From Bacteroidia bacterium (lineage in GTDB: Bacteria > Bacteroidota > Bacteroidia > 2-12-FULL-35-15): a DNA stretch of 64,000 nt. The stretch spans positions 1-64,000 of the forward strand of contig JAURXZ010000016.1 in NCBI GenBank assembly GCA_030654175.1, in the 5' to 3' direction. Numbering within the stretch: the stretch's first letter is position 1; every line of letters starts with the position of its first letter. The position numbers and the translations under genes were made by a program. This document shows, piece after piece, positions 81 through 32,459 of this stretch. Below the pieces are notes generated by a model, which was not told the DNA's origin, did not search any database, and saw only the letters and a program-made list of their open reading frames with translations.

Positions 81-206
81 TCTATTTGCTGATTACTAAT
101 AAGTTAAATATAATAAAAATCCTTTATAGGGATAAGTACGAAAAAATTTAACTGATGAAGATATAAATAACGATTATCGCCAGTGATATCTTTGAATGAC
201 ACCCCA
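1..206 (-). mobile_element. End of an IS1595-family insertion sequence (partial)
   Basis: The minus strand starting near 206 reads GGGGTGTCATTCAAAG, which looks like a terminal inverted repeat; IS1595-family ends often begin with G-rich bases. About 125 bp further on, a transposase-like reading frame opens and runs off the window. The neighbouring epimerase stop codon lies only about 4 bp outside this end. The bases between (TAAATTAT, overlapping the stop) could be one copy of an 8-bp target duplication. The other end is outside the window, so neither the terminal repeat nor the duplication can be confirmed. Confidence 0.5.
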
Positions 207-1275: not shown

Positions 1276-2184
1276 CTATTTTCTTAATATAGCATAACCA
1301 AATCCAGCTTTACCGTACCCATTTCCACAATAAAGCATATAAATTTCGTCTTTATGTTTGAAAACATTAGGATAGCATATCATTTCAGAATCCCATCCCG
1401 AAGAAGATAATTCTATTCCAACTTTATCATCCATTCTGGTAAATTGATATCCATCCTTTGATTCTGCATAACCCATGTTGTACCCCCCACTTTCTATTGC
1501 ATAACAATACCACATTCTGTATACTCCATCATCTTTGATAATGCTGGCTCTTGAAACCCTACTTTCTTTATCATTTTTATAAGTAACCGAAACAACTCCC
1601 TCTCTTTTCCAGTGAATTCCGTCAGTAGATTCTGCATATTTTATATTATATCTTGGCAATTCCTCGTTTATCCAATAATCAGCTGAATCATACCACATTC
1701 TCCAAATCCCGTTTTCAATTATAATACATGAAATCACTAAAATGGTGTAAGGTTCCATATCTGTTCTGTCAATAACAGGTGCTTTGGAGTATCTTTCAAA
1801 TGTAGCACCATTATCAGTACTGATAGCTAATCCCGAAACCTCAGCAGCTCTCACTTTGGAACCTTTATTCCATCCCATGATATAGAAATATTTTTTCCCT
1901 TCATGTGTTACAATGCAGGTAGGTGAAATCCCATTATCATCATAACTCCCAAGTTTGCCTATATCTACTATTGGTTTTTCGGATAAATGAAGAATTTTTG
2001 AAGGATCCTTTATGTCAATTTCAATGTATCCGGTTCTTGAAATATTAGATTCATCCCTACCTGAAAAATAGACTCTGAATAAGTCATCCTTAATATGATC
2101 AACTGTAGGAAGCATCGCATGAGTTTTCACCCAATCATATTGTCCATTAGGCTGAAATATTTGCCCCTTTTTTTCCCATCTCAT
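1276..2184 (-). CDS. GH43/GH32-like five-bladed beta-propeller protein, cytoplasmic (copy 1)
   Basis: This 302-residue protein resembles the small glycosidase-like proteins of the GH43/GH32/GH130 propeller fold. It has repeated blade motifs such as MWYDSADYW and MWYCYA, an early 'RVYFSGRDE', and a C-terminal 'GWDSEMICYPNVF' followed by 'GFGYAIL'. It is clearly paralogous to the genes at 28603 and 29577, sharing the WDS-E/D-M and GFG-A-L signatures. It has no signal peptide, so it should act in the cytoplasm, which is odd for a polysaccharide hydrolase. It lies between the PseG-like gene and an epimerase. A transferase, phosphorylase or editing role on a nucleotide- or lipid-linked sugar is possible, but the function is unknown. 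Confidence 0.65.
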   Translation of the reverse strand: MRWEKKGQIFQPNGQYDWVKTHAMLPTVDHIKDDLFRVYFSGRDESNISRTGYIEIDIKDPSKILHLSEKPIVDIGKLGSYDDNGISPTCIVTHEGKKYFYIMGWNKGSKVRAAEVSGLAISTDNGATFERYSKAPVIDRTDMEPYTILVISCIIIENGIWRMWYDSADYWINEELPRYNIKYAESTDGIHWKREGVVSVTYKNDKESRVSRASIIKDDGVYRMWYCYAIESGGYNMGYAESKDGYQFTRMDDKVGIELSSSGWDSEMICYPNVFKHKDEIYMLYCGNGYGKAGFGYAILRK

Positions 2185-2204: not shown

Positions 2205-3194
2205 TTAATTTAAAATTTCTGCTATTATTTCATCCTTGCCTTCCCCTATTTCCATAGAAGCAATGATTGGATTTACAGGAAATAAAAATGATTTATTTTT
2301 TATCATAGAAGCTAGTTTGTGAATGTCTTCAATACCCATAGTAGGTAAAATATCTGCATAAACTTTCATTTGAAGTTCGTTCTGATGAAATCCTATTACT
2401 GGTGTTCCTACTGCCAATGCTTCAAAAAAAGATAGTCCCGGAGAGGCGAATACAACATCACTTTTGTACATAGTTTCACTAACATTGGTCATATTTTTAA
2501 CAATATTGACATTACTTTTGGAAGCCTTGTTTTTTTCTAACACTTCATTTAATTCCTTATTGTGTTCAAAGGCGGAACCTAAAACCAACAGAATATTAAA
2601 TTCTGAATCTATTTGAAGAAGTTCATCCAAAACAAAGGAAGAAATATTAGAAGGATCAGCCCCCCCAAAAATCAACATTATATTTTTAATCACATCGTTT
2701 TGAATTTTTTTCTTCGTTTTGAAATTATAAAATTCAGGCCTTAATATCCAGAATTTAGGACCAAAATATTGCATTTTACCTGTAATAGTATCCTTGTTAA
2801 CAATATTCTTAAAATTGCTTCCAATATCTGCTAAAACTGCGATATCAGCGAAATTATTCGCTTCTGTTAAATTGGTGAAAATAATTAGTTTGGTTTGTAG
2901 TTCCTCTTTAATTTTTTTTGCCAGATCAGGAGAAACATCTAATTTGTCGAAAATGACCCTATCAGGTTTTTCAGTTTTTAAAGCCGCTAAAATTAAGTTA
3001 TCGTCACCATACTGATAAACTTTTTTTCCCGTGGTCTTTAAAAGATCAATTACATTTTCGTTGCTCTTGGTAATAAAAAATATTTCGGCCTGATTATTTG
3101 TTTTAATTGATAAGAATTCAGCCAAAGTCCTGGATTGGTATATGTGTCCCATACCCAAAGTATTGTTGCCATCTGTAATTATTGCAATCTTCAT
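2205..3194 (-). CDS. pseG: PseG-like UDP-sugar hydrolase (pseudaminic acid pathway)
   Basis: This 329-residue GT-B-fold protein resembles UDP-2,4-diacetamido-2,4,6-trideoxy-beta-L-altropyranose hydrolase, which releases UDP before condensation with phosphoenolpyruvate. The N-terminal TDGNNTLGMGHIYQS carries the GMGH motif with the family's catalytic-region His. The C-terminal half has IFGGADPSN and a 'SPGLSFFEALAVGTP' segment that resembles the UDP-binding loop of MurG-like proteins. It follows the PseF gene by 29 bp, in the same order as classical pse operons. A legionaminic acid pathway hydrolase is an alternative, but neighbouring PseB and PseC point to pseudaminic acid. Confidence 0.8.
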   Translation of the reverse strand: MKIAIITDGNNTLGMGHIYQSRTLAEFLSIKTNNQAEIFFITKSNENVIDLLKTTGKKVYQYGDDNLILAALKTEKPDRVIFDKLDVSPDLAKKIKEELQTKLIIFTNLTEANNFADIAVLADIGSNFKNIVNKDTITGKMQYFGPKFWILRPEFYNFKTKKKIQNDVIKNIMLIFGGADPSNISSFVLDELLQIDSEFNILLVLGSAFEHNKELNEVLEKNKASKSNVNIVKNMTNVSETMYKSDVVFASPGLSFFEALAVGTPVIGFHQNELQMKVYADILPTMGIEDIHKLASMIKNKSFLFPVNPIIASMEIGEGKDEIIAEILN

Positions 3195-3223
3195 ATTTAC
3201 TTAATAAATGATTAATACGAACT

Positions 3224-3919
3224 TTATTTTTCGAGTAAAAGTTTATATTTCATTTCGGCTAACTTCCAATCTGTAATTGAATCAATATCTTGAACCGATT
3301 CCTCAGACAAAATAATAGATCCCGTATTATCAGGCCAGACCCAAGCTTTCAAATTATCGGTATTAAACCAATACCATTGTCCAGCATCATGATACACTTT
3401 TTTTAGGTCTTGGGATCTTGAGTTTAGATATTCAGGCCAAACCATTTTAGTTTCACCATTTTCACTTATTTCAAGTCCTCTCCACAAAGGATAACTAAAG
3501 GCCACTGCGGGAAATACACAAGTAAAATTATTTTTTTTTAAAATACTAAGTCCTTCTTCCAATTGATTTATTTGAATCAATGGAGCGGTTGGATAAACAC
3601 AACATGCAAATTGAAATTTTTTCTCTTGTTTTTCTAAATATTTTTTTAACACCTCATCAATAACGTCCATAGTAGTGGCATAATCATCGGAGTTTTCATT
3701 GCTTCGAATAAAAGGAACCTGGGCTCCGTATTGTATTGCAATTTTTGCGATCTCCATATCATCTGTAGAGACCATAACCTCATCAAATAAATTTGATTCT
3801 AAAGCTGCCTGTATGGAATATGCAATAATAGGTTTTCCTAAAAAATTTTTGATATTTTTTTTTGGTATTCGCTTACTACCGCCACGAGCGGGGATGATGG
3901 CTATTGCACTTTTTTTCAT
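3224..3919 (-). CDS. pseF: Pseudaminic acid cytidylyltransferase
   Basis: This 231-residue protein is a CMP-nonulosonate synthetase, which activates the nonulosonic acid with CTP before transfer. The N-terminal IPARGGSKRIPKKNIK (about residues 9-24) is the CTP-binding signature of the CMP-NeuAc synthetase family, and 'VYPTAPLI' and 'DIDSITDW' are further family motifs. The length matches PseF. Its start codon overlaps the stop of the preceding methyltransferase by one base (TAATG), so the two are translationally coupled. The synthase that would make its substrate (PseI/NeuB type) is not in the window. Confidence 0.87.
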   Translation of the reverse strand: MKKSAIAIIPARGGSKRIPKKNIKNFLGKPIIAYSIQAALESNLFDEVMVSTDDMEIAKIAIQYGAQVPFIRSNENSDDYATTMDVIDEVLKKYLEKQEKKFQFACCVYPTAPLIQINQLEEGLSILKKNNFTCVFPAVAFSYPLWRGLEISENGETKMVWPEYLNSRSQDLKKVYHDAGQWYWFNTDNLKAWVWPDNTGSIILSEESVQDIDSITDWKLAEMKYKLLLEK

Positions 3920-4971
3920 TATTTACGCCTAAACAATAATAATTCTGAATTAAAATCGTCTACAGTTCTGTAGCCAAAAGGAATAACATTTCGGTCAACC
4001 AACTCATAATCTGTTAACATAGTTTTGTAATCATCCCCAAGAATAGGAGTTTCAACACCAGCAGAGTCCTTGTCTTTTCTTTTGTTTTTACCTTCCTTCA
4101 TATTGCGCAACAACACCCATTTGGTTTCTAAGCGCGCAACATGTTCAAGGTAATTTTTCACAATATGTGGCTCCATTTCCTGAAAAGAAATAAAGTTCAC
4201 GAATAGATCTACTTTTCCAACAAGTTTTTCAATTTGCCATGAACAGAAGACAGAGGCTTGTGGTAATGAATCAATATTAATAAGAGTCTTTTCCCGTGTT
4301 TGTTCGTAGGTAGCAACATTATTCTTCCCAAGAACATTACTCAAATAAACTTGGGCTACATAACTAGTTGGTGGTATATCTATATCTATGTAACGAAGCT
4401 CCTCGATACCTGAACTTGAAAGAATTTCGCCAAGCGTTCCGAATCCGCCTCCGATTTCCAAAACTGTTTTTGGCACACTCCCATTTAAATGTTTTTTTAA
4501 CATCGCTAAACCTAAAAGGTAATTAAGGGATGATCGGCTATATTTTCTTCCTTCAAATTCAAATTGTTCGATAGGTTCTCCAAAAGAAGATTCAGAGAAT
4601 GTATGAAGATAGGGAAGGTTAGACTGATTATCAGCTGCAACAAGAACACGATAGTCTGAGATAGCAGACATTTTTCCTGTCAAAAATTGTTCAATCGAGA
4701 TTTGTGGTTTTTTCTCCAAAGGAAATTCATTTTTAAACCTGCTGTTTATCCCTTCAATCATTTCCTGAGAGAAACAATTTCCCGGAAAACCATAAGTAGG
4801 AACAAAATAACCAAGTGTAGTTGGCAAGGAACGAAAGCGATCAATACCGAAAGTAGTAAGTTCTTTTACAATTTGCTGAGAAGCCTCGTCCCAAAATCTT
4901 GAAGGTTTGTACAATTCATTCTGGGACAGCATATCTTCGCGTGAACGTGTTAACTCAGGATAGGTATTCAT
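3919..4971 (-). CDS. Putative sugar O-methyltransferase
   Basis: This 350-residue protein matches the pattern of the putative sugar O-methyltransferases found in polysaccharide loci. An N-terminal part with 'RFWDEASQQIV' precedes a class I SAM-binding motif, VLEIGGGFGTLGEIL, near residues 167-181. Late in the protein, 'EMEPHIVKNYLEHVARL' suits the family. It sits between pseC and pseF and overlaps pseF by one base. It therefore probably methylates pseudaminic acid, one of its intermediates, or a sugar next to it. Family recognition is fairly good; the acceptor is inferred only from position. Confidence 0.7.
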   Translation of the reverse strand: MNTYPELTRSREDMLSQNELYKPSRFWDEASQQIVKELTTFGIDRFRSLPTTLGYFVPTYGFPGNCFSQEMIEGINSRFKNEFPLEKKPQISIEQFLTGKMSAISDYRVLVAADNQSNLPYLHTFSESSFGEPIEQFEFEGRKYSRSSLNYLLGLAMLKKHLNGSVPKTVLEIGGGFGTLGEILSSSGIEELRYIDIDIPPTSYVAQVYLSNVLGKNNVATYEQTREKTLINIDSLPQASVFCSWQIEKLVGKVDLFVNFISFQEMEPHIVKNYLEHVARLETKWVLLRNMKEGKNKRKDKDSAGVETPILGDDYKTMLTDYELVDRNVIPFGYRTVDDFNSELLLFRRK

Positions 4972-4998
4972 TTTTATTATGGTTTATAGTTCTTAATT

Positions 4999-6168
4999 CT
5001 ATTTACAACAATATGTTAAAATTTTTTCAATAACATAATCCTGTTCCTTGTCAGTTAGGGTTGGGTACATTGGTAAGCTAATACAGTGTTTATAATAATT
5101 TTCGGCAATGGAAAAATCGCCTTCTTTCGATCCAAATTGCCGATAATACGGCATTAAATGAACAGGGATATAATGTATTTGAGCAAAAACACCACACTCT
5201 CTTAAATGATCGTATAAACCTTTTCTGTCTTCTACCTCAATCACAAACAAATGATGCGCGTTAAAATAGTTACTATCATATTTCTGTATTTTTATTGAAG
5301 TAGCATCAAAAGCTTTTCTATATTTTTTTGCAATTTCATGACGTTTTATGATTCCTTCCTCTGCTCTTTTTAACTGACTATTCGCCAATGCGGCCTGCAT
5401 GTCCGTTATTCGATAATTATATCCAAGATCTTGCATTTCATAATACCATACCCCTTGCTTTTCAGGTTCAGGAAAATCTAATTGCATATTTTCCTTAGTA
5501 ATTCCATGCGTACGAAGTATTAATAATTTTTTATATAGTGTTTCATCATTAGTGGTAATCATGCCGCCTTCTCCAGCAGCAATATGTTTTACGGGGTGAA
5601 ATGAAAAAACCGCAGCATCTGCAAAATTACAATTTCCACAATTTTGCTTAGTGTTTGCTGAATCCATAAAATAACCACCAGGAGAGTGGCAGGCATCTTC
5701 TAAAATCAATAAATCATATTCATGGGCTAACGTTTTTATTTCTTCCAAATTAACCGGATAGCCAGCAAAATCAACAGGGATAATCGCTTTAAAATATCCT
5801 TTTGGATGTGTTTTTAATAATTGTATGATACTATTTATAGAAATCACATAAGTATCTCTATCAATGTCTGCAAAATAAACTTCTGCACCGCAGTATAATG
5901 CTGCATTTGCAGATGCAACAAACGTTATAGGAGATGTTATAATTCTGTCTCCTTTTTTAATACCAAACGCCAATAAAGCTAAATGCAATGCAGCAGTACC
6001 ATTTGAAACTGCAACTGCGAAGTTACAACCTATGTAATTTGCAAAATTCCTTTCAAATTCAGCAATTTTTGGTCCCTGAGTCAAAAAATCCGAATGTAAA
6101 GCCTCTATAACGGCATCTGTATCTTCTTGAGAAATAAATTGTTTTCCGTAAGGTATTGAATAGTTCAT
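4999..6168 (-). CDS. pseC: UDP-4-amino-4,6-dideoxy-N-acetyl-beta-L-altrosamine transaminase
   Basis: This 389-residue protein is a DegT/DnrJ/EryC1/StrS-family PLP aminotransferase. It should transfer an amino group to the 4-keto sugar made by PseB. The pyridoxal lysine lies in SFHPVKHIAAGEGG, the form typical of PseC rather than of VioA-like enzymes. 'SNGTAALHLAL' near residue 60 and 'ILEDACHSPGG' (cofactor Asp) are also present. Its ATG overlaps the pseB stop by one base (TAATG), so the two are coupled. It is distinct from the second aminotransferase of the locus at 31332. Confidence 0.9.
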   Translation of the reverse strand: MNYSIPYGKQFISQEDTDAVIEALHSDFLTQGPKIAEFERNFANYIGCNFAVAVSNGTAALHLALLAFGIKKGDRIITSPITFVASANAALYCGAEVYFADIDRDTYVISINSIIQLLKTHPKGYFKAIIPVDFAGYPVNLEEIKTLAHEYDLLILEDACHSPGGYFMDSANTKQNCGNCNFADAAVFSFHPVKHIAAGEGGMITTNDETLYKKLLILRTHGITKENMQLDFPEPEKQGVWYYEMQDLGYNYRITDMQAALANSQLKRAEEGIIKRHEIAKKYRKAFDATSIKIQKYDSNYFNAHHLFVIEVEDRKGLYDHLRECGVFAQIHYIPVHLMPYYRQFGSKEGDFSIAENYYKHCISLPMYPTLTDKEQDYVIEKILTYCCK

Positions 6169-7184
6169 TATTGTATAAAATCGAAATTAGAATCTACATT
6201 TTCTTTGATCAATTTCCTTAAACTTTCAACAGTCTCCCATTGATCATTACTGCCTGAATTATAGCTAAATTCAATTGGAACATTTTTTGCATTAAAATGT
6301 TTTTTATATTCCTTGATATCAAAAATTGGATTTTGAGGTAAAATTGCATAATATTTACCTAAATCCACTGTATAAAAAGAATCTGAAATGGTTATCATTT
6401 CTTCATGCAATTTTTCTCCCGGTCTTATCCCAACCTCCTCTTGTGCACATTCGGGAGCAATTGCAGTAGCAACATCTATAATTTTGTACGAAGGGATTTT
6501 AGGAACAAAAATTTCGCCCCCCCATGCATTTTCAATAGCATTGAAAACCATTTCGCATCCATCCTCTAATGAAATATTAAAACGTGTCATTCTCTTATCG
6601 GTAATTGGCAATACGCCTTCCTTTCTTTTCTTTAGGAAGAAAGGCATAACTGAACCATTAGATCCCATAACATTTCCGTAACGAACTACCGAAAAAACAA
6701 GATCTCTTTTCCCCCTAATGTTATTGGCTGCAATAAATAATTTATCTGAAGTTAATTTTGTAGCACCATACAAATTTATCGGTGCCGCGGCTTTATCCGT
6801 TGATAAAGCCACAACCTTCTTAACATTGCATTTCACAGCAGCATTGATAACATTTTCTGCCCCTAAAACGTTAGTTTTAACACATTCCATTGGATTAAAT
6901 TCAGCCAAATGTACATGCTTCATCGCTGCAGCATGTATTACAATATCTATTCCTTCAAAAGCACTTATTAAGCGGTTTTCATCTCTAACATCCCCAATAA
7001 AATAACGAATAGCAGGATATTTGCTTTCTGGATATTCCATTGCCATTTGATAATGCTTTTGCTCATCTCTAGATAAAATAACCAATCTTTTTACGTCTGG
7101 AAATTTTTCGAAAATTAATTTAGTAAACATTTTACCAAATGATCCAGTTCCTCCAGTGATTAAAACACTTTTATTATTAAGCAT
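6168..7184 (-). CDS. pseB: UDP-N-acetylglucosamine 4,6-dehydratase (inverting)
   Basis: This 338-residue extended SDR resembles FlaA1/PseB, which converts UDP-GlcNAc to UDP-2-acetamido-2,6-dideoxy-L-arabino-hexos-4-ulose, the first step towards pseudaminic acid. The NADP-binding ITGGTGSFGKMF starts at about residue 8. The active site STDKAAAPINLYGATK has the Tyr-x-x-x-Lys form of the inverting enzymes, unlike the Met form of the dehydratase at 16692. It leads the pse block, and the 468-bp gap upstream holds a possible promoter box. The gene order pseB-pseC then methyltransferase-pseF-pseG supports the call. Confidence 0.92.
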   Translation of the reverse strand: MLNNKSVLITGGTGSFGKMFTKLIFEKFPDVKRLVILSRDEQKHYQMAMEYPESKYPAIRYFIGDVRDENRLISAFEGIDIVIHAAAMKHVHLAEFNPMECVKTNVLGAENVINAAVKCNVKKVVALSTDKAAAPINLYGATKLTSDKLFIAANNIRGKRDLVFSVVRYGNVMGSNGSVMPFFLKKRKEGVLPITDKRMTRFNISLEDGCEMVFNAIENAWGGEIFVPKIPSYKIIDVATAIAPECAQEEVGIRPGEKLHEEMITISDSFYTVDLGKYYAILPQNPIFDIKEYKKHFNAKNVPIEFSYNSGSNDQWETVESLRKLIKENVDSNFDFIQ

Positions 7185-27324: not shown

Positions 27325-28071
27325 TTACTTGGGGCCCTTTTCGCACAACAAAAAAATACTGGAGCATAAATCGGGATATTGCTGACCTAACTCATAACAT
27401 CCTTCCAAATATTCTGGCGAAATAATGTCAGTCCCTAACAATTTATCCCATTGGAAATTTGCCAGAGCTTTAAAGAAGATGCCGGAACGATACACGACAT
27501 TTAATCCTGCAGCCTTTGCGTCTCTTTCCAAAGTATCCAAGGTGTAGGTTATATTGTGTCCGTGTTCCTTTTCAGCTGGAGTTATTGCAGAATTATGAGA
27601 AATTAACCCCATTTTTACAGCAATTTGTCTTGATGGCGCATTAGCATTAGGACAAACCAAGAAGAATCTTCCTTTGTCAGATAGCCATTCATCATTGATT
27701 CTTTTCAATACAGCAACCGGATTATCAATATGTTCCAACACATGAGTTAAAACAATATTATCGTATTTGGCGGGTAGTATCGCTTTTTCAAAAAGAGAAT
27801 TTACAAATTTCACCTTAGTTCCAAATTCATTTTTTGCAATGGTAATTGCTTCGTCAGAAGCCTCTACACAAGTAATATCATTGAAATAAGGTAAAAATCT
27901 TCGGGTAAAATCGCCTTTAAAACTTCCTAATTCCAGAAAGTTTCCTTCTTTAAAAAAAGGAGTAAATGATTTTAGCATAAAAGGATGCATTACATCAAAA
28001 TCGAAGCTATATGCGTATTTATGATCTTTGGTATCCCTTAATTCTTTGTTGTAATTTCTTTGAATTGTCAT
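27325..28071 (-). CDS. SAM-dependent methyltransferase
   Basis: This 248-residue class I methyltransferase has the SAM motif FLELGSFKGDFTRRFL (about residues 44-59), 'VTCVEASDEAI'-like motif II and 'IVLTHVLEHIDNPVAVLKRI' downstream. These type 11/23 methyltransferases in polysaccharide loci may cap or decorate sugars. The C-terminal 'LCSSIFLLCEKG' closes the fold. The acceptor is unknown. It lies between the flippase gene and a GNAT gene. Confidence 0.8.
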   Translation of the reverse strand: MTIQRNYNKELRDTKDHKYAYSFDFDVMHPFMLKSFTPFFKEGNFLELGSFKGDFTRRFLPYFNDITCVEASDEAITIAKNEFGTKVKFVNSLFEKAILPAKYDNIVLTHVLEHIDNPVAVLKRINDEWLSDKGRFFLVCPNANAPSRQIAVKMGLISHNSAITPAEKEHGHNITYTLDTLERDAKAAGLNVVYRSGIFFKALANFQWDKLLGTDIISPEYLEGCYELGQQYPDLCSSIFLLCEKGPK

Positions 28072-28140: not shown

Positions 28141-28563
28141 TTATTTAATTTCAAGTTTCATTAAATCTAAATCACCATTAAAATCATACTTTATAAAATT
28201 ATTTTTATTGTATAAACCAATCGCAGGAACATTTTTTTTATGAACTTCTAGTTTGATTTCTTTAAAATTATTTTGTTTAACGTATTCAATACAATTGCGT
28301 GTTAGTTTTGTCGAAATCCTCAAGCCCATATATTTTTTCAATATACTTACATTGGTGATAAAGGCAGAATGGGTTGTAGCATTCATATAGACTGCAACCA
28401 AACCCACAAGAATGCTTTCTGACCATGCTTCAAATGTAATTGACCGATTCTCTATTTTTTTTGCATACTCCTCAATACTAACTCTTTCAACTAAAGGTGG
28501 AAAAAAATTATCATTGCATTCTTTTAAATGCAAGCAAATTTCCTGCTCTGTAGCTGTTTTCAT
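28141..28563 (-). CDS. GNAT-family N-acetyltransferase
   Basis: I start at the ATG at 28563; the longer frame would need a TTG. The 140-residue GNAT fold shows 'GLVAVYMNATTHSAFITNVSI', then an acetyl-CoA loop in 'KYMGLRISTKLTRNCIEYV' (a degenerate Q/RxxGxG/A), and 'LEVHKKNVPAIGLYNKNNFIKY' at the C-terminus. By position, close to a VioA-like aminotransferase, it may acetylate the new 4-amino group. It is also the only GNAT in the window and so the only local candidate for the missing PseH step, but it lies 21 kb from the pse block. Confidence 0.75.
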   Translation of the reverse strand: MKTATEQEICLHLKECNDNFFPPLVERVSIEEYAKKIENRSITFEAWSESILVGLVAVYMNATTHSAFITNVSILKKYMGLRISTKLTRNCIEYVKQNNFKEIKLEVHKKNVPAIGLYNKNNFIKYDFNGDLDLMKLEIK

Positions 28564-28602
28564 TTTATATCTTATCTTATTTGTTTCCAAAAAAACAATT
28601 GA

Positions 28603-29568
28603 TTAATTTTTATCACTTTCTAAAACTGCAATTCCAAATCCAAAACGTCCAAATTCATTGCCATTATATAATAGATACACTTTATCATTGCAGTGAAAAA
28701 TATGTGGGTAGCACATCATATCAGAATCCCAGCTTCCTTCAGTAATGTCAATTCCTGAATTTGCATCATCTCTTGTCCAGCTAGTTAAATCATCTGAATA
28801 TGCGTAACCAATGCGGTATCCACGATCTTTGTCTTTTCTAAAACCGGTTGATTGCCTGTAACAAAAATACATGTGGTATCGGTTATTCAGGAATATAACA
28901 GTAGGCAAAGCCTGGCACTCATCAACATTAAGTTTATCAGAAATTATTTGCTTCCCATCCTTGATCCATTCAATACCATCATTAGATGTAGCATGTGCAA
29001 TTTTGTAAACACGAGCAGGGGAATTATCGATAGTGTTTTCTATCCATCTTTCTCCATAAATATACCACATATGATACGTATTGTTAAAATTACAAACAAA
29101 GGAATCCCCTACCAGAAAAGGTTCGTGAAGGGATGAAGATAATACAGGTCCATCACTAACTTTTTGAAAAGTTAAACCATTATCATTACTGATAGCTAAT
29201 CCTGTTGATGTTTCGACAGAAACAGAAACTCTTCGGCTCCAACCGCATGTGTAGGCAAGTATTCTGCCATTATCTTTTAAAATATTGATAGGAAAAATTC
29301 CATGTTCATCAAAACAACCTAATCCACCTAACTTAATTACAGTATTATCAGCAACCCTGATTACCTTTTTGAAACTTTTATCCATATCAACAAATGAAAT
29401 ATGGCTTAAATATTTTCCGTTTTTTTCGTCTTTCTCGCGTGTCGAAAAATAAATCCTTACAAAATCGTCAAACACCAACGTTTGCGGAGATTGAGCAAAT
29501 TCAACACAATTGTTAGCTAACTTATATTTTATAGGATCAAATATATTTCCTAGTTTTTTCCACTTCAT
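28603..29568 (-). CDS. GH43/GH32-like propeller protein, cytoplasmic (copy 2)
   Basis: This 321-residue paralogue of the genes at 29577 and 1276 has the same plan: start 'KWKKLGNIFDP', 'FVRIYFSTRE', 'GCFDEHGIFPINIL', 'YHMWYIYGERWIEN', 'YHMYFCYRQS' and the C-terminal 'SWDSDMMCYPHIF' and 'FGFGIAVLE'. There is no signal peptide. Repeated Y-H-M-x-F/Y blades and conserved Asp/Glu residues fit the five-bladed glycosidase-like fold. The gene follows copy 3 by 8 bp, so the two are co-expressed. Function is unknown; action on an intracellular glycan precursor is inferred from location. Confidence 0.65.
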   Translation of the reverse strand: MKWKKLGNIFDPIKYKLANNCVEFAQSPQTLVFDDFVRIYFSTREKDEKNGKYLSHISFVDMDKSFKKVIRVADNTVIKLGGLGCFDEHGIFPINILKDNGRILAYTCGWSRRVSVSVETSTGLAISNDNGLTFQKVSDGPVLSSSLHEPFLVGDSFVCNFNNTYHMWYIYGERWIENTIDNSPARVYKIAHATSNDGIEWIKDGKQIISDKLNVDECQALPTVIFLNNRYHMYFCYRQSTGFRKDKDRGYRIGYAYSDDLTSWTRDDANSGIDITEGSWDSDMMCYPHIFHCNDKVYLLYNGNEFGRFGFGIAVLESDKN

Positions 29569-29576
29569 CGTACGCT

Positions 29577-30542
29577 CTAATTATTTGTAAGGCTTTCGAG
29601 TTGTGCTAAACCAAAACCAAATCTACCAACATGATTTCCTAAATAAAACATATATAATTTTTTATCCAATTCGAAAACATGTGGGTAGCTTATCATTTCA
29701 GAATCCCAACCCTCTTTTGAAACATCTATACCAACCTTAGAGTCATCTCTAAACCAGTTTATCAAATCCTCAGAAGAAGCATATCCGATACGGTAACCTT
29801 TATCTTTACCTCTGAAATTTAAGCTATATCTATAGCAAAAAAACATATGATATTTATTTTCATAGAAGAAAACATCTGGACTTGCCTGCGCTTCATTTTC
29901 TTCCAGTTTGTTTTCAATAAGATCTTTATCTGCTTTTACCCAATTGATACCATCGGTTGAAGCAGCCATACGGATTTTATACACGGGTTCTGGCTTTCCA
30001 TCATTCTCAATCCATTTTCTTCCGGCTATGTAAAATAAATACCATGAATTATTAAATTTTCTGATTTTAGGCCCACTCAAAATAAATGGTTCGTTAATAC
30101 TATAAGAAATGACAGGTCCCAGTCCTAATTTCGTAAATGTTTCACCATTATCATAACTTTTTGCAAGCCCAATCGCTACGTTAAAAGGAACAGATTCGCA
30201 TCTTGTCCAACCACCATAATATGCGAGAATATCATTTCCATCCCTTATAATGGACGCAGGATAGGTACCAAATTCATCAAAAGTTCCCCGTGCACCTAAT
30301 TTTAAAATTGGCTGATCGGATATGTTTACTATTTCGAATAAGTTTTCCCTGTTGAAGTCAACAAAAGCTGAATAGCTAACATATTGTCCGTTTTCATCGG
30401 GTAGCGGCCTGCATGCAAAATAAACTCTAATAAATTTATCAAATATCAAAACAGAAGGTGCTTGCGCAAATTCATTGAGCCAACTTTTACCTTTCACATC
30501 CGAAGGATTAAAAACCCTTCCTAGTTTTTTCCACGTAAACAT
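29577..30542 (-). CDS. GH43/GH32-like propeller protein, cytoplasmic (copy 3)
   Basis: I start at the ATG at 30542; the longer frame begins with TTG. The 321-residue protein is the closest relative of the copy at 28603 ('TWKKLGRVFNPSD', 'FIRVYFACRP', 'GTFDEFGTYPASII', 'KYHMFFCYRYS', 'GWDSEMISYPHVF', 'GFGLAQLE'). No secretion signal is present. Its acidic residues in FDEFG and WDSEM are shared by all three paralogues and are candidates for catalysis. It lies downstream of the WbqC and aminotransferase genes. Confidence 0.65.
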   Translation of the reverse strand: MFTWKKLGRVFNPSDVKGKSWLNEFAQAPSVLIFDKFIRVYFACRPLPDENGQYVSYSAFVDFNRENLFEIVNISDQPILKLGARGTFDEFGTYPASIIRDGNDILAYYGGWTRCESVPFNVAIGLAKSYDNGETFTKLGLGPVISYSINEPFILSGPKIRKFNNSWYLFYIAGRKWIENDGKPEPVYKIRMAASTDGINWVKADKDLIENKLEENEAQASPDVFFYENKYHMFFCYRYSLNFRGKDKGYRIGYASSEDLINWFRDDSKVGIDVSKEGWDSEMISYPHVFELDKKLYMFYLGNHVGRFGFGLAQLESLTNN

Positions 30543-30630: not shown

Positions 30631-31335
30631 CTATACTAAAGTAAAAGAAGATTCTAAGTGTTTTTTTATTTCCTCTACTGAGTTAAACATCATTACATCT
30701 ATGATAGATAAAAAGGGGACAAAATCATTATTAAATTGATTGTATTTGATATCACTTGTCTTTAAAAAAAATAAATTTATTCCCTCTTTTTTAAAATCAT
30801 CTTTATTATAAAGTTCGGTTCCTCCGATGGGATTAATATAAGAATCAGCATTTCGAGTTTTACATATCACTACAACTTTATTTTCTGCTTTTAATTGATG
30901 ATCTATTGGAATGGTAGATGATATTATTAAAGAAGTTGAAATGCCTAAATATTCTTTAATTACATTTATAGAATTAAAAATAAATTTGAATAAATTCATT
31001 TCTTCAAATAAAAAACAATTTTCAAATTTCGGATAAACAGTGTTAAAATAGGGGGATTTCCTATACGACTCAATTATTCTATTCAACATTTTTTTTCTTT
31101 CGGTCGGCCATATTTCAGCTAGATACCTTTCTTTGACGTCCAGGTAATCTGAATCTTTTTTTAAAGGAAGTGTGATAAATGCATCTTTGCCATTCACCAA
31201 AATTCTGTTTCTATTGATCCATCCTTTTTTTGTGAATTCTATGTTATCATAAATAACAAATTCATCAACCGCATTCATTAATTGAAAATATCCAATGTAA
31301 GGAAAAAGATAAGGTTGCATGATAGCTAGTTTCAT
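30631..31335 (-). CDS. WbqC-family protein
   Basis: This 234-residue protein starts 'MKLAIMQPYLFPYIGYFQLM', the signature of the WbqC-like family, and has 'GWINRNRI' and 'ITLPLKKDS'. In O-antigen loci wbqC is found next to vioA and has been linked to N-acylation (glycyl-type) of 4-amino-4,6-dideoxysugars; this role is family knowledge, not proven here. Its ATG overlaps the aminotransferase stop by 4 bp (ATGA), so the two are coupled, which supports a shared 4-amino-sugar pathway. Confidence 0.85.
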   Translation of the reverse strand: MKLAIMQPYLFPYIGYFQLMNAVDEFVIYDNIEFTKKGWINRNRILVNGKDAFITLPLKKDSDYLDVKERYLAEIWPTERKKMLNRIIESYRKSPYFNTVYPKFENCFLFEEMNLFKFIFNSINVIKEYLGISTSLIISSTIPIDHQLKAENKVVVICKTRNADSYINPIGGTELYNKDDFKKEGINLFFLKTSDIKYNQFNNDFVPFLSIIDVMMFNSVEEIKKHLESSFTLV

Positions 31336-32459
31336 ACAAATCTGTTCTTAAAGCTATTACAAATTTTCAAAATAATTTCTTCCTCTAAATCAGGGTAAAT
31401 TGGCAAGCATAGTATTTCTTCTGTTATTCTCTCAGCAATCGGCATCTTGCCAGGTTGAGAAGATTCTAATCCCCGATAGGTTGCAAATTGACTTATTAAA
31501 GGATGAAAATATTTTCTTGCGAAAATATTTTGTTTTACTAATTCTTCATAAACCTCGTCTCTTGATTTACCGTAAATAGCTTTAGAAATTACAATTGGGA
31601 AATATGAATAACAATGTTTCACATGATCCATATCGTCCATATAAGATAAACCATCAATTCCATTAAGTTTTTCGCGATAGAGTTCTGCTATTTTTTTTCT
31701 ATTTTCAATTATTCCATCAATATATTTTAATTGCAATAAGCCCATAGCAGCTTGAACTTCATTCATTTTCGCGTTGATACCAGGCGAAACAACCTGACCA
31801 TTTACAAATCCAAAATTTTTCAAATTATCAATTCGGTCTTTAGTTGCTTTATCATGACATACTATGGCTCCACCTTCGAAAGTGTTATAAACTTTAGTTG
31901 CATGAAAACTCATAACCGAAAGGTCGCCATAGTTTAAAACCGGAATGCCTTTAATATCAACACCAAAAGTATGGCAAGCATCGTAAATTACTTTTAAGCC
32001 ATAGGTGTCAGCTATCTCTTTAATTCTGTCAACATTACAGGGATTTCCATAAACATGAACTGGTAGAATAGCAGTAGTTTTTGGAGTTATAGCCGCTTCA
32101 ATTTTTTCAGGATCAATATTAAATGTATTCGGTTCAATATCTACAAATACGGGTTTAATATTATTCCACCACAGTGAATGAGTAGTAGCTACGAAACTAT
32201 ATGGGGTAGTAATAACTTCACCGGTAATGCGTAATTCTTGCAATGCAGTTACAAGGGCCAATGTGCCATTAGAAAAGAGAGAAATATACTTAACACCCAA
32301 ATATTCGCAAAGTGCTTTTTCTAAATCCTGGTGGAATTTCCCGTTGTTGGTAATCCATTTGCTGTCCCAAATATCTTTTAAATACACCTGAAATTCTTCC
32401 AAAGGAGGGAGAAAAGGCTGCGTGACTAAAATGGGGGAGGGATTCTTGCTCATTTTCAT
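31332..32459 (-). CDS. VioA-like sugar 4-aminotransferase (DegT/DnrJ family)
   Basis: This 375-residue PLP enzyme has the pyridoxal-lysine segment SFHATKVYNTFEGG, typical of VioA-like dTDP-4-keto-6-deoxyglucose 4-transaminases and unlike PseC (HPVKHIAAGEGG). 'LFSNGTLALVTAL' and 'VIYDACHTFGVD' bind the cofactor. It should make dTDP-Qui4N (viosamine) or a related sugar from an RmlA/RmlB product; neither rml gene is in the window. The WbqC gene follows with a 4-bp overlap. Confidence 0.85.
   Translation of the reverse strand: MKMSKNPSPILVTQPFLPPLEEFQVYLKDIWDSKWITNNGKFHQDLEKALCEYLGVKYISLFSNGTLALVTALQELRITGEVITTPYSFVATTHSLWWNNIKPVFVDIEPNTFNIDPEKIEAAITPKTTAILPVHVYGNPCNVDRIKEIADTYGLKVIYDACHTFGVDIKGIPVLNYGDLSVMSFHATKVYNTFEGGAIVCHDKATKDRIDNLKNFGFVNGQVVSPGINAKMNEVQAAMGLLQLKYIDGIIENRKKIAELYREKLNGIDGLSYMDDMDHVKHCYSYFPIVISKAIYGKSRDEVYEELVKQNIFARKYFHPLISQFATYRGLESSQPGKMPIAERITEEILCLPIYPDLEEEIILKICNSFKNRFV

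Follow-up and report, generated by a model that had tools for sequence, protein, structure and literature searches.

Paired cytoplasmic five-bladed propeller proteins form the fixed middle of a mobile six-gene cassette for a putative aminoacylated surface sugar

What would proteins with a glycosidase fold and no secretion signal do inside a gene cluster for sugar synthesis? The question is raised by a 64,000-nucleotide stretch of DNA from a Bacteroidia bacterium (contig JAURXZ010000016.1, positions 1 to 64,000; hereafter the window), in which three related propeller genes lie on the reverse strand. Propeller A (28603-29568, minus strand) encodes 321 aa from an ATG start, and propeller B (29577-30542, minus strand) encodes 321 aa from a conserved ATG at 30542, the mechanically called ORF beginning 9 bases further upstream at a TTG. 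Propeller C (1276-2184, minus strand; 302 aa) is a single-copy relative located in a pse operon. A and B share 49% identity and A and C 36%, and a search of the whole 5.1-Mb Bacteroidota genome of the window revealed A, B and C as the only family members. An earlier note on this DNA had described three signal-less five-bladed propellers, which was borne out by the ORFs, by an AlphaFold2 model of B and by a crude Kyte-Doolittle scan, in which no signal- or membrane-type hydrophobic stretch was detected in A, B, C or 138 clustered relatives. The family, whose proteins are named 'glycosylase', 'hypothetical protein' or 'exo-alpha-sialidase' in database records, is real, conserved and biosynthetic, and the note's placing of the propellers in a biosynthetic locus, probably not as polymer hydrolases, is supported by the results presented here.

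A and B are located between the WbqC and VioA genes on one side and the GNAT and methyltransferase genes on the other. The former encode a WbqC-family protein (30631-31335, minus strand; PF08889) and a VioA-type DegT aminotransferase (31332-32459, minus strand) assigned to 4-amino-4,6-dideoxyhexose synthesis, with a DesI model score of 309 bits that lies below the cut-off of 650. The latter encode a GNAT N-acyltransferase (28141-28590, minus strand), homologous to the GNAT of E. coli O121 (26% identity over 95 aa), and a class I SAM methyltransferase (27325-28071, minus strand), which is among the most conserved members of the cassette.

A query alignment built from six members of the family, run against genome_contigs (84,980 species), revealed at least 568 relatives, and the best 80 of these loci were retained. 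As these were picked solely by similarity to B, the selection favours the cassette, and polysaccharide genes cluster anyway. The cassette order was VioA-WbqC-propB-propA-GNAT-methyltransferase. Among these best 80 of at least 568, some of them cut by contig ends, propeller A was present in 79, WbqC and the methyltransferase each in 74, VioA in 69 and GNAT in 68 (E 1e-8, at least 50% coverage). The sole locus without propeller A (which follows B in 79/80) stops at a contig edge, and in two loci (L029, L058) the methyltransferase is missing despite room for it. Under a stricter coverage rule the complete order was found in 39/80 loci, with nine others missing only VioA and nine only GNAT. The gap between B and A was at most 27 bases in 79/79 loci, large negative values reflecting upstream start choice, and the B proteins of the 80 loci were 66-87% identical to that of the window.

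According to record titles, the carriers belong to Bacteroidota, several Pseudomonadota classes, Anaerolineales, Planctomycetota, Omnitrophota and Nitrospira, and further to Armatimonadetes, Patescibacteria, Campylobacteraceae and Clostridium; since MAGs make up most of these records, single cases may be contamination. On Rhizobium plasmids the cassette forms a stand-alone island with one GT2. To our knowledge no product structure has been reported for any cassette carrier, and a paper on the A/B propeller pair or on WbqC activity was not found in the literature searched, which left most subscription journals outside its scope. Flagellin-like genes were present in 6/80 loci (L042, L059, L072, L081, L085 and L094), and PMC9650423 reports seven such genes between fliA and fliC in Dickeya zeae WH1. 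A protein in L095 that had been considered as FliD was dismissed on reading the protein itself. Together, A and B form an obligate pair that occupies the constant centre of a mobile cassette.

Phylogenetic analysis of 177 family members resolved the B (82 members) and A (81 members) proteins as two monophyletic groups (support 0.85 and 0.996, respectively) that are sisters to one another, while 14 single-copy relatives, C included, fell outside both clades. Across the 47 loci that carry all six genes, mean pairwise identity was 0.73 for B, 0.73 for the methyltransferase, 0.68 for A, 0.57 for WbqC, 0.55 for VioA and 0.42 for GNAT, and the distance matrices of A and B correlated with r 0.90, the highest of all cassette pairs. 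This degree of conservation suggests a strong constraint on A and B, as expected for an enzyme core.

The Pfam matches of A, B and C were partial and weak: GH32N scored above its cut-off in all three, GH130 above its cut-off in B only, and GH43 below its cut-off in B and C. GINT1_N (PF24793) matched B at 27.3 versus a cut-off of 27.0, with no match listed for A or C and none listed in a whole-genome search of the window's genome (G000). The AlphaFold2 model of B (pLDDT 94.4) is a confident five-bladed propeller that matched five-bladed GH folds over its whole length. Its closest solved structures, at 8-17% identity, were BT_0996 (the best match, Z 28.1, 16% identity; a member of GH137), GH159, GH130, GH43, GH32 and GH117, with many GH43, GH32 and GH117 chains at Z 24-27; GH130 phosphorylases and a mannoside synthase were among the fold neighbours. 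The GT108 entry 6Q50 was absent among the 50 structure matches listed, and no conclusion is drawn from this absence.

Some propellers outside the A/B/C family deserve mention. In polysaccharide loci of Bacteroidota (L159:1166-2791 and L160:1630-3240), GINT1_N propellers are fused to a formyltransferase-like domain, which was detected in two of the five long proteins scanned, once above and once just below the Pfam cut-off. One family is rich in stand-alone GINT1_N proteins that carry a hydrophobic stretch at the N-terminus. A distantly related 453-residue propeller (L111:8913-10274) has a lipoprotein-like start and may be exported, unlike the A/B/C family. A 352-residue protein of Moumouvirus australiensis has a similar fold (BFVD A0A2P1EMR3, TM 0.62), and PMC10117803 describes this virus as making bacterial-type sugars. 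A phage or viral origin of the propellers was considered and rejected: the phages collection yielded no relative and viral_contigs none that was confirmed, and the BFVD structure matches were generic propellers only.

The acidic positions that the note had reported as common to the three proteins were confirmed, the shared pattern being FDE/YDD-G and WDS-E/D-M, which reads FDEHG and WDSDM in A, FDEFG and WDSEM in B, and YDDNG and WDSEM in C. All B (82/82) and A (81/81) proteins have D89, as do 13/14 single-copy relatives; at residue 90, E is found in nearly every A and B protein and D or E in 12/14 single-copy relatives. D280, R265 and D267 are invariant across the 177 aligned members, and R39, R45 and R238 are nearly so. 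When residues were placed by the strand topology of the predicted B model, and not by model coordinates, the loop face (the active-site face of GH propellers) held polar or aromatic residues fixed in A and B at 18 of its 152 positions, versus 16 of 134 in strands and 0 of 35 on the opposite face.

In enzymes of the GH43, GH32 and GH117 type, the catalytic Asp directly precedes a conserved Pro of the inner strand (Asp-Pro). A search for this acid was run over all five blades, so that register is irrelevant, and none was present in B, where positions 28, 94, 157, 221 and 286 hold A/G, Y, G, S and Y (82/82). Among the 14 single-copy relatives none was acidic at 28, 94, 221 or 286, nor was any at 157 among the 13 shown. 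The exception is A, in which a lineage-specific Asp157 (B numbering; 81/81) is followed by G, A, S or P, versus Gly157 in 82/82 B proteins. The invariant GH130 acid is D142 of BT3780 according to PMC4599007, and its equivalent is not kept: residue 221 is S in 82/82 B, L in 81/81 A, and R, T, K, C or S in the 14 single-copy relatives (R in 9/14), a placement that depends on HMM alignment within a repetitive fold. Judged from these alignments, the acids common to A, B and C are distinct from the canonical GH catalytic acids, and polymer hydrolysis by A/B is unlikely.

The predicted structure of the WbqC protein (pLDDT 92) most closely resembled BshC (Z 14.2, rmsd 3.3, 225/234 residues; next chain 7.2), the ligase believed to couple cysteine to glucosaminyl-malate when bacillithiol is made. 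Foldseek alone matched the two at E 0.0067, and a profile search of PDB chains revealed no BshC sequence match to WbqC. An ATP-grasp protein occupies the WbqC slot in two loci (L024:8752-9966 and L026:8768-9967), and WbqC adjoins an AMP-binding enzyme in L101. The BshC-like fold, the ATP-grasp substitution and the AMP-binding neighbour lead us to regard WbqC as probably an amino-acid:amino-sugar ligase. A 27% relative of the ATP-grasp protein adjoins PseI in the window's own genome (L155:862-1995).

Loci in E. coli bear on what these neighbours can accomplish. E. coli O121, whose O-antigen we take to be identical to that of S. dysenteriae D7, carries rmlBA-DegT-WbqC-GNAT and no propeller, and E. 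coli O123 carries DegT, WbqC, a PLP-like protein, GNAT and MaoC. The corresponding sugars are given in PMC10609480 as N-acetylglycyl-Qui4N for S. dysenteriae D7 and 3-hydroxybutyryl-D-alanyl-Qui4N for E. coli O123. Since such VioA-WbqC-GNAT loci exist without a propeller, amination, ligation and acylation would need none, and the propellers would add a further step. The O123 gene between WbqC and GNAT was considered as a propeller and rejected, being unrelated and PLP-enzyme-like by eye; recorded as a 'hypothetical protein' in E. coli O123/O186 (L098:10751-11725), it may provide or synthesize the D-alanyl group. We also considered a cyclase that would form oxoprolyl side chains, an idea drawn from the O-antigen acyl groups in PMC10609480, and set it aside as having no evidence of its own.

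The genes that follow the cassette hint at the stage at which A and B act. Directly after the methyltransferase, a GtrB-type GT2 was found in 15 of the 52 loci with room, 22 of the 23 members of this GT2 cluster having 2 TM segments, and GtrA was present in 13/80 loci (best 80 of at least 568). In GtrAB systems, sugars are carried singly on undecaprenyl phosphate. As a GtrB module requires a single completed NDP-monosaccharide, A and B would be expected to act earlier, suggesting that their step belongs to donor synthesis.

Propeller C adjoins pse genes (2205-7184, minus strand) encoding a PseG-like protein, PseF, a NanM-type methyltransferase, PseC and PseB; with 133.8 bits, the PseG-like protein (2205-3194) falls short of the 153.55 required for PseG. 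The start of another contig of the same genome encodes PseI together with an ATP-grasp protein and a hexapeptide acyltransferase. A join of contigs C21 and C27 into one pse operon was unproven and not adopted: their ends do not overlap, and a 28-base stretch lies near both ends, but on the same strand. Separately, the 24-base ATCCTTTATAGGGATAAGTACGAA occurs near the start of four contigs (window 119-142; G000 C27:120-143, C34:726-749 and C32:119-142), one copy having 1 mismatch, with two further sites at 2 mismatches, and may be a repeat or invertible site where the assembly breaks.

Several single-copy relatives adjoin WbqC, an aminotransferase, a hexapeptide acyltransferase and a methyltransferase (FkbM, TylF or class I), all from other families. 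A full-length propeller was present in 12 of 395 Bacteroidota genomes (a partial match in G070, with a 464-residue frame, having been dropped before this count), and WbqC lay within 5 kb in at least 6 of the 12. The chance estimate for WbqC near the propeller in 6/12, about 5e-9, assumes even gene spacing and is too optimistic since polysaccharide genes cluster. In L105-L107 a lone propeller lies among GT2 genes, with no aminotransferase or ligase within about 10 kb. The note placed each propeller beside a different sugar-specific module; a picture of three equivalent copies, each tied to its own sugar, is not supported. A and B are an obligate pair in a mobile cassette, and C belongs to a looser single-copy set and would, within the pse operon, carry out the related step with a precursor of an amino sugar as its substrate.

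The reading that we put forward, at a probability of roughly 0.45, has A and B as enzymes of the cytoplasm, probably acting together as a pair, that tailor a rare surface sugar while it is still nucleotide-bound, within a cassette for aminoacylated sugars. VioA would yield dTDP-4-amino-4,6-dideoxyglucose, the BshC-like WbqC would ligate an amino acid to the sugar amine, GNAT would acylate the ligated amino acid and the methyltransferase would methylate the product, in a presumed pathway order. A and B would introduce a further change in this NDP-sugar, their putative substrate, with D89/E90 and D280 as candidates for acid-base chemistry and R39, R45, R238 and others possibly holding the phosphates. 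Since the ligase and acyltransferase vary or are replaced, and A/B are constant, the propellers may act on the sugar ring and not on the aminoacyl chain. Group transfer is our first guess for the reaction and polymer hydrolysis the least likely. A more far-reaching version, which we offer only tentatively, would make A/B a new class of sugar-nucleotide tailoring enzyme, in which a glycosidase fold was recruited intracellularly to act on the nucleotide of an aminoacylated 4-amino-4,6-dideoxyhexose with acid-base residues unlike those of known glycosidase families, A (Asp157) being catalytic and B essential, and the six-gene cassette spreading between phyla to decorate O-antigens and flagellins.

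Tailoring of the sugar nucleotide has to be weighed against the possibility that A and B are glycosyltransferases that move the cassette sugar from the nucleotide to an acceptor, relying on a cluster of arginines plus a single acid where a hydrolase has two. Transferase chemistry, as suggested in the note, or tailoring chemistry is compatible with our data, and a real precedent for a propeller glycosyltransferase exists in GT108, the five-bladed, GH130-like propellers of Leishmania that PMC8476585 and PMC8950772 describe as dual glycosyltransferase-phosphorylases. The phosphorylases and mannoside synthase among the fold neighbours and the conserved arginines (R39, R45, R238) fit such an activity, and the setting of L105-L107, among GT2 genes only, fits a transferase better than tailoring; the absence of the methyltransferase from L029 and L058 also speaks against tailoring. 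However, the GH130-type acid is not kept at its aligned place, many loci already have a GtrB-type GT directly after the cassette, and the Rhizobium island has its own GT2. Moreover, the acceptors should differ between O-antigens and flagellins, yet B remains as similar across loci as noted above. We consider a GT108-like role rather unlikely.

Less probable still is that the pair is catalytically dead and holds the NDP-sugar, or the ligase and acyltransferase, to channel substrate. Such a role would suit the lack of an Asp-Pro acid in any blade of B, the adjoining ligase and acyltransferase genes, and the joining of the sister family GINT1_N to a formyltransferase-like domain; it is at odds with polar and charged residues fixed over 82 B, 81 A and mostly also the 14 single-copy relatives, with the concentration of fixed residues on the loop face versus none opposite, and with an Asp157 fixed in A only. 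The note's further idea of hydrolytic editing or quality control of activated sugars or lipid-linked repeats could draw on a GH fold, a cytoplasmic location and conserved acids, but the usual glycosidase acid position is empty in B and the single-copy relatives, and obligate pairing within a defined donor cassette is hard to reconcile with it; 'editing enzyme' found no evidence, and we regard it as very improbable. Sugar-nucleotide tailoring is thus favoured over both a GT108-like transferase and a binding role.

Surface sugars bearing amino acids or acyl groups are common antigens, but few of the enzymes responsible for attaching these groups have been assigned. Given how highly this compact and mobile cassette is conserved across many phyla, a single biochemical reconstitution would account for many loci for polysaccharides and flagellins; it would also give WbqC, a large family, a function in BshC-like ligation, and show whether a glycosidase fold can perform a different reaction inside the cell.

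Compared with known systems, the cassette shares gene content with E. coli O121 and O123, whose DegT proteins are 53% and 58% identical and WbqC proteins 39% and 40%, respectively, the GNAT being homologous for O121. In contrast, neither has a propeller or a cassette methyltransferase in the stretch examined, and O123 has the PLP-like protein and MaoC instead. The assembly of bacillithiol and mycothiol (BshC, MshD) likewise combines an amino sugar, ligation of an amino acid and acylation by a GNAT. The cassette shares this logic, and the WbqC model resembles BshC, although WbqC is without a BshC sequence match and the cassette product would be a polymer or flagellin sugar and not a thiol. With regard to the propellers themselves, GH130 (beta-mannoside phosphorylases and hydrolases) and GT108 (mannosyltransferase-phosphorylases) resemble them as five-bladed folds over the full length (GH130 chains at Z 25-27) and in weak HMM similarity, but the HMM alignment to GH130 is shifted by two blades and the gene context of A/B is donor synthesis. 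GH137 (BT_0996), GH159, GH43, GH32 and GH117 belong to the same fold class as B, whereas B and the single-copy relatives lack the Asp-Pro acid and a signal peptide and lie in a biosynthetic locus. Finally, GINT1_N propellers also occur without secretion signal in polysaccharide-type loci, but their bacterial members keep an invariant Ala-Asp-Pro (8/8 aligned) that A, B and C do not.
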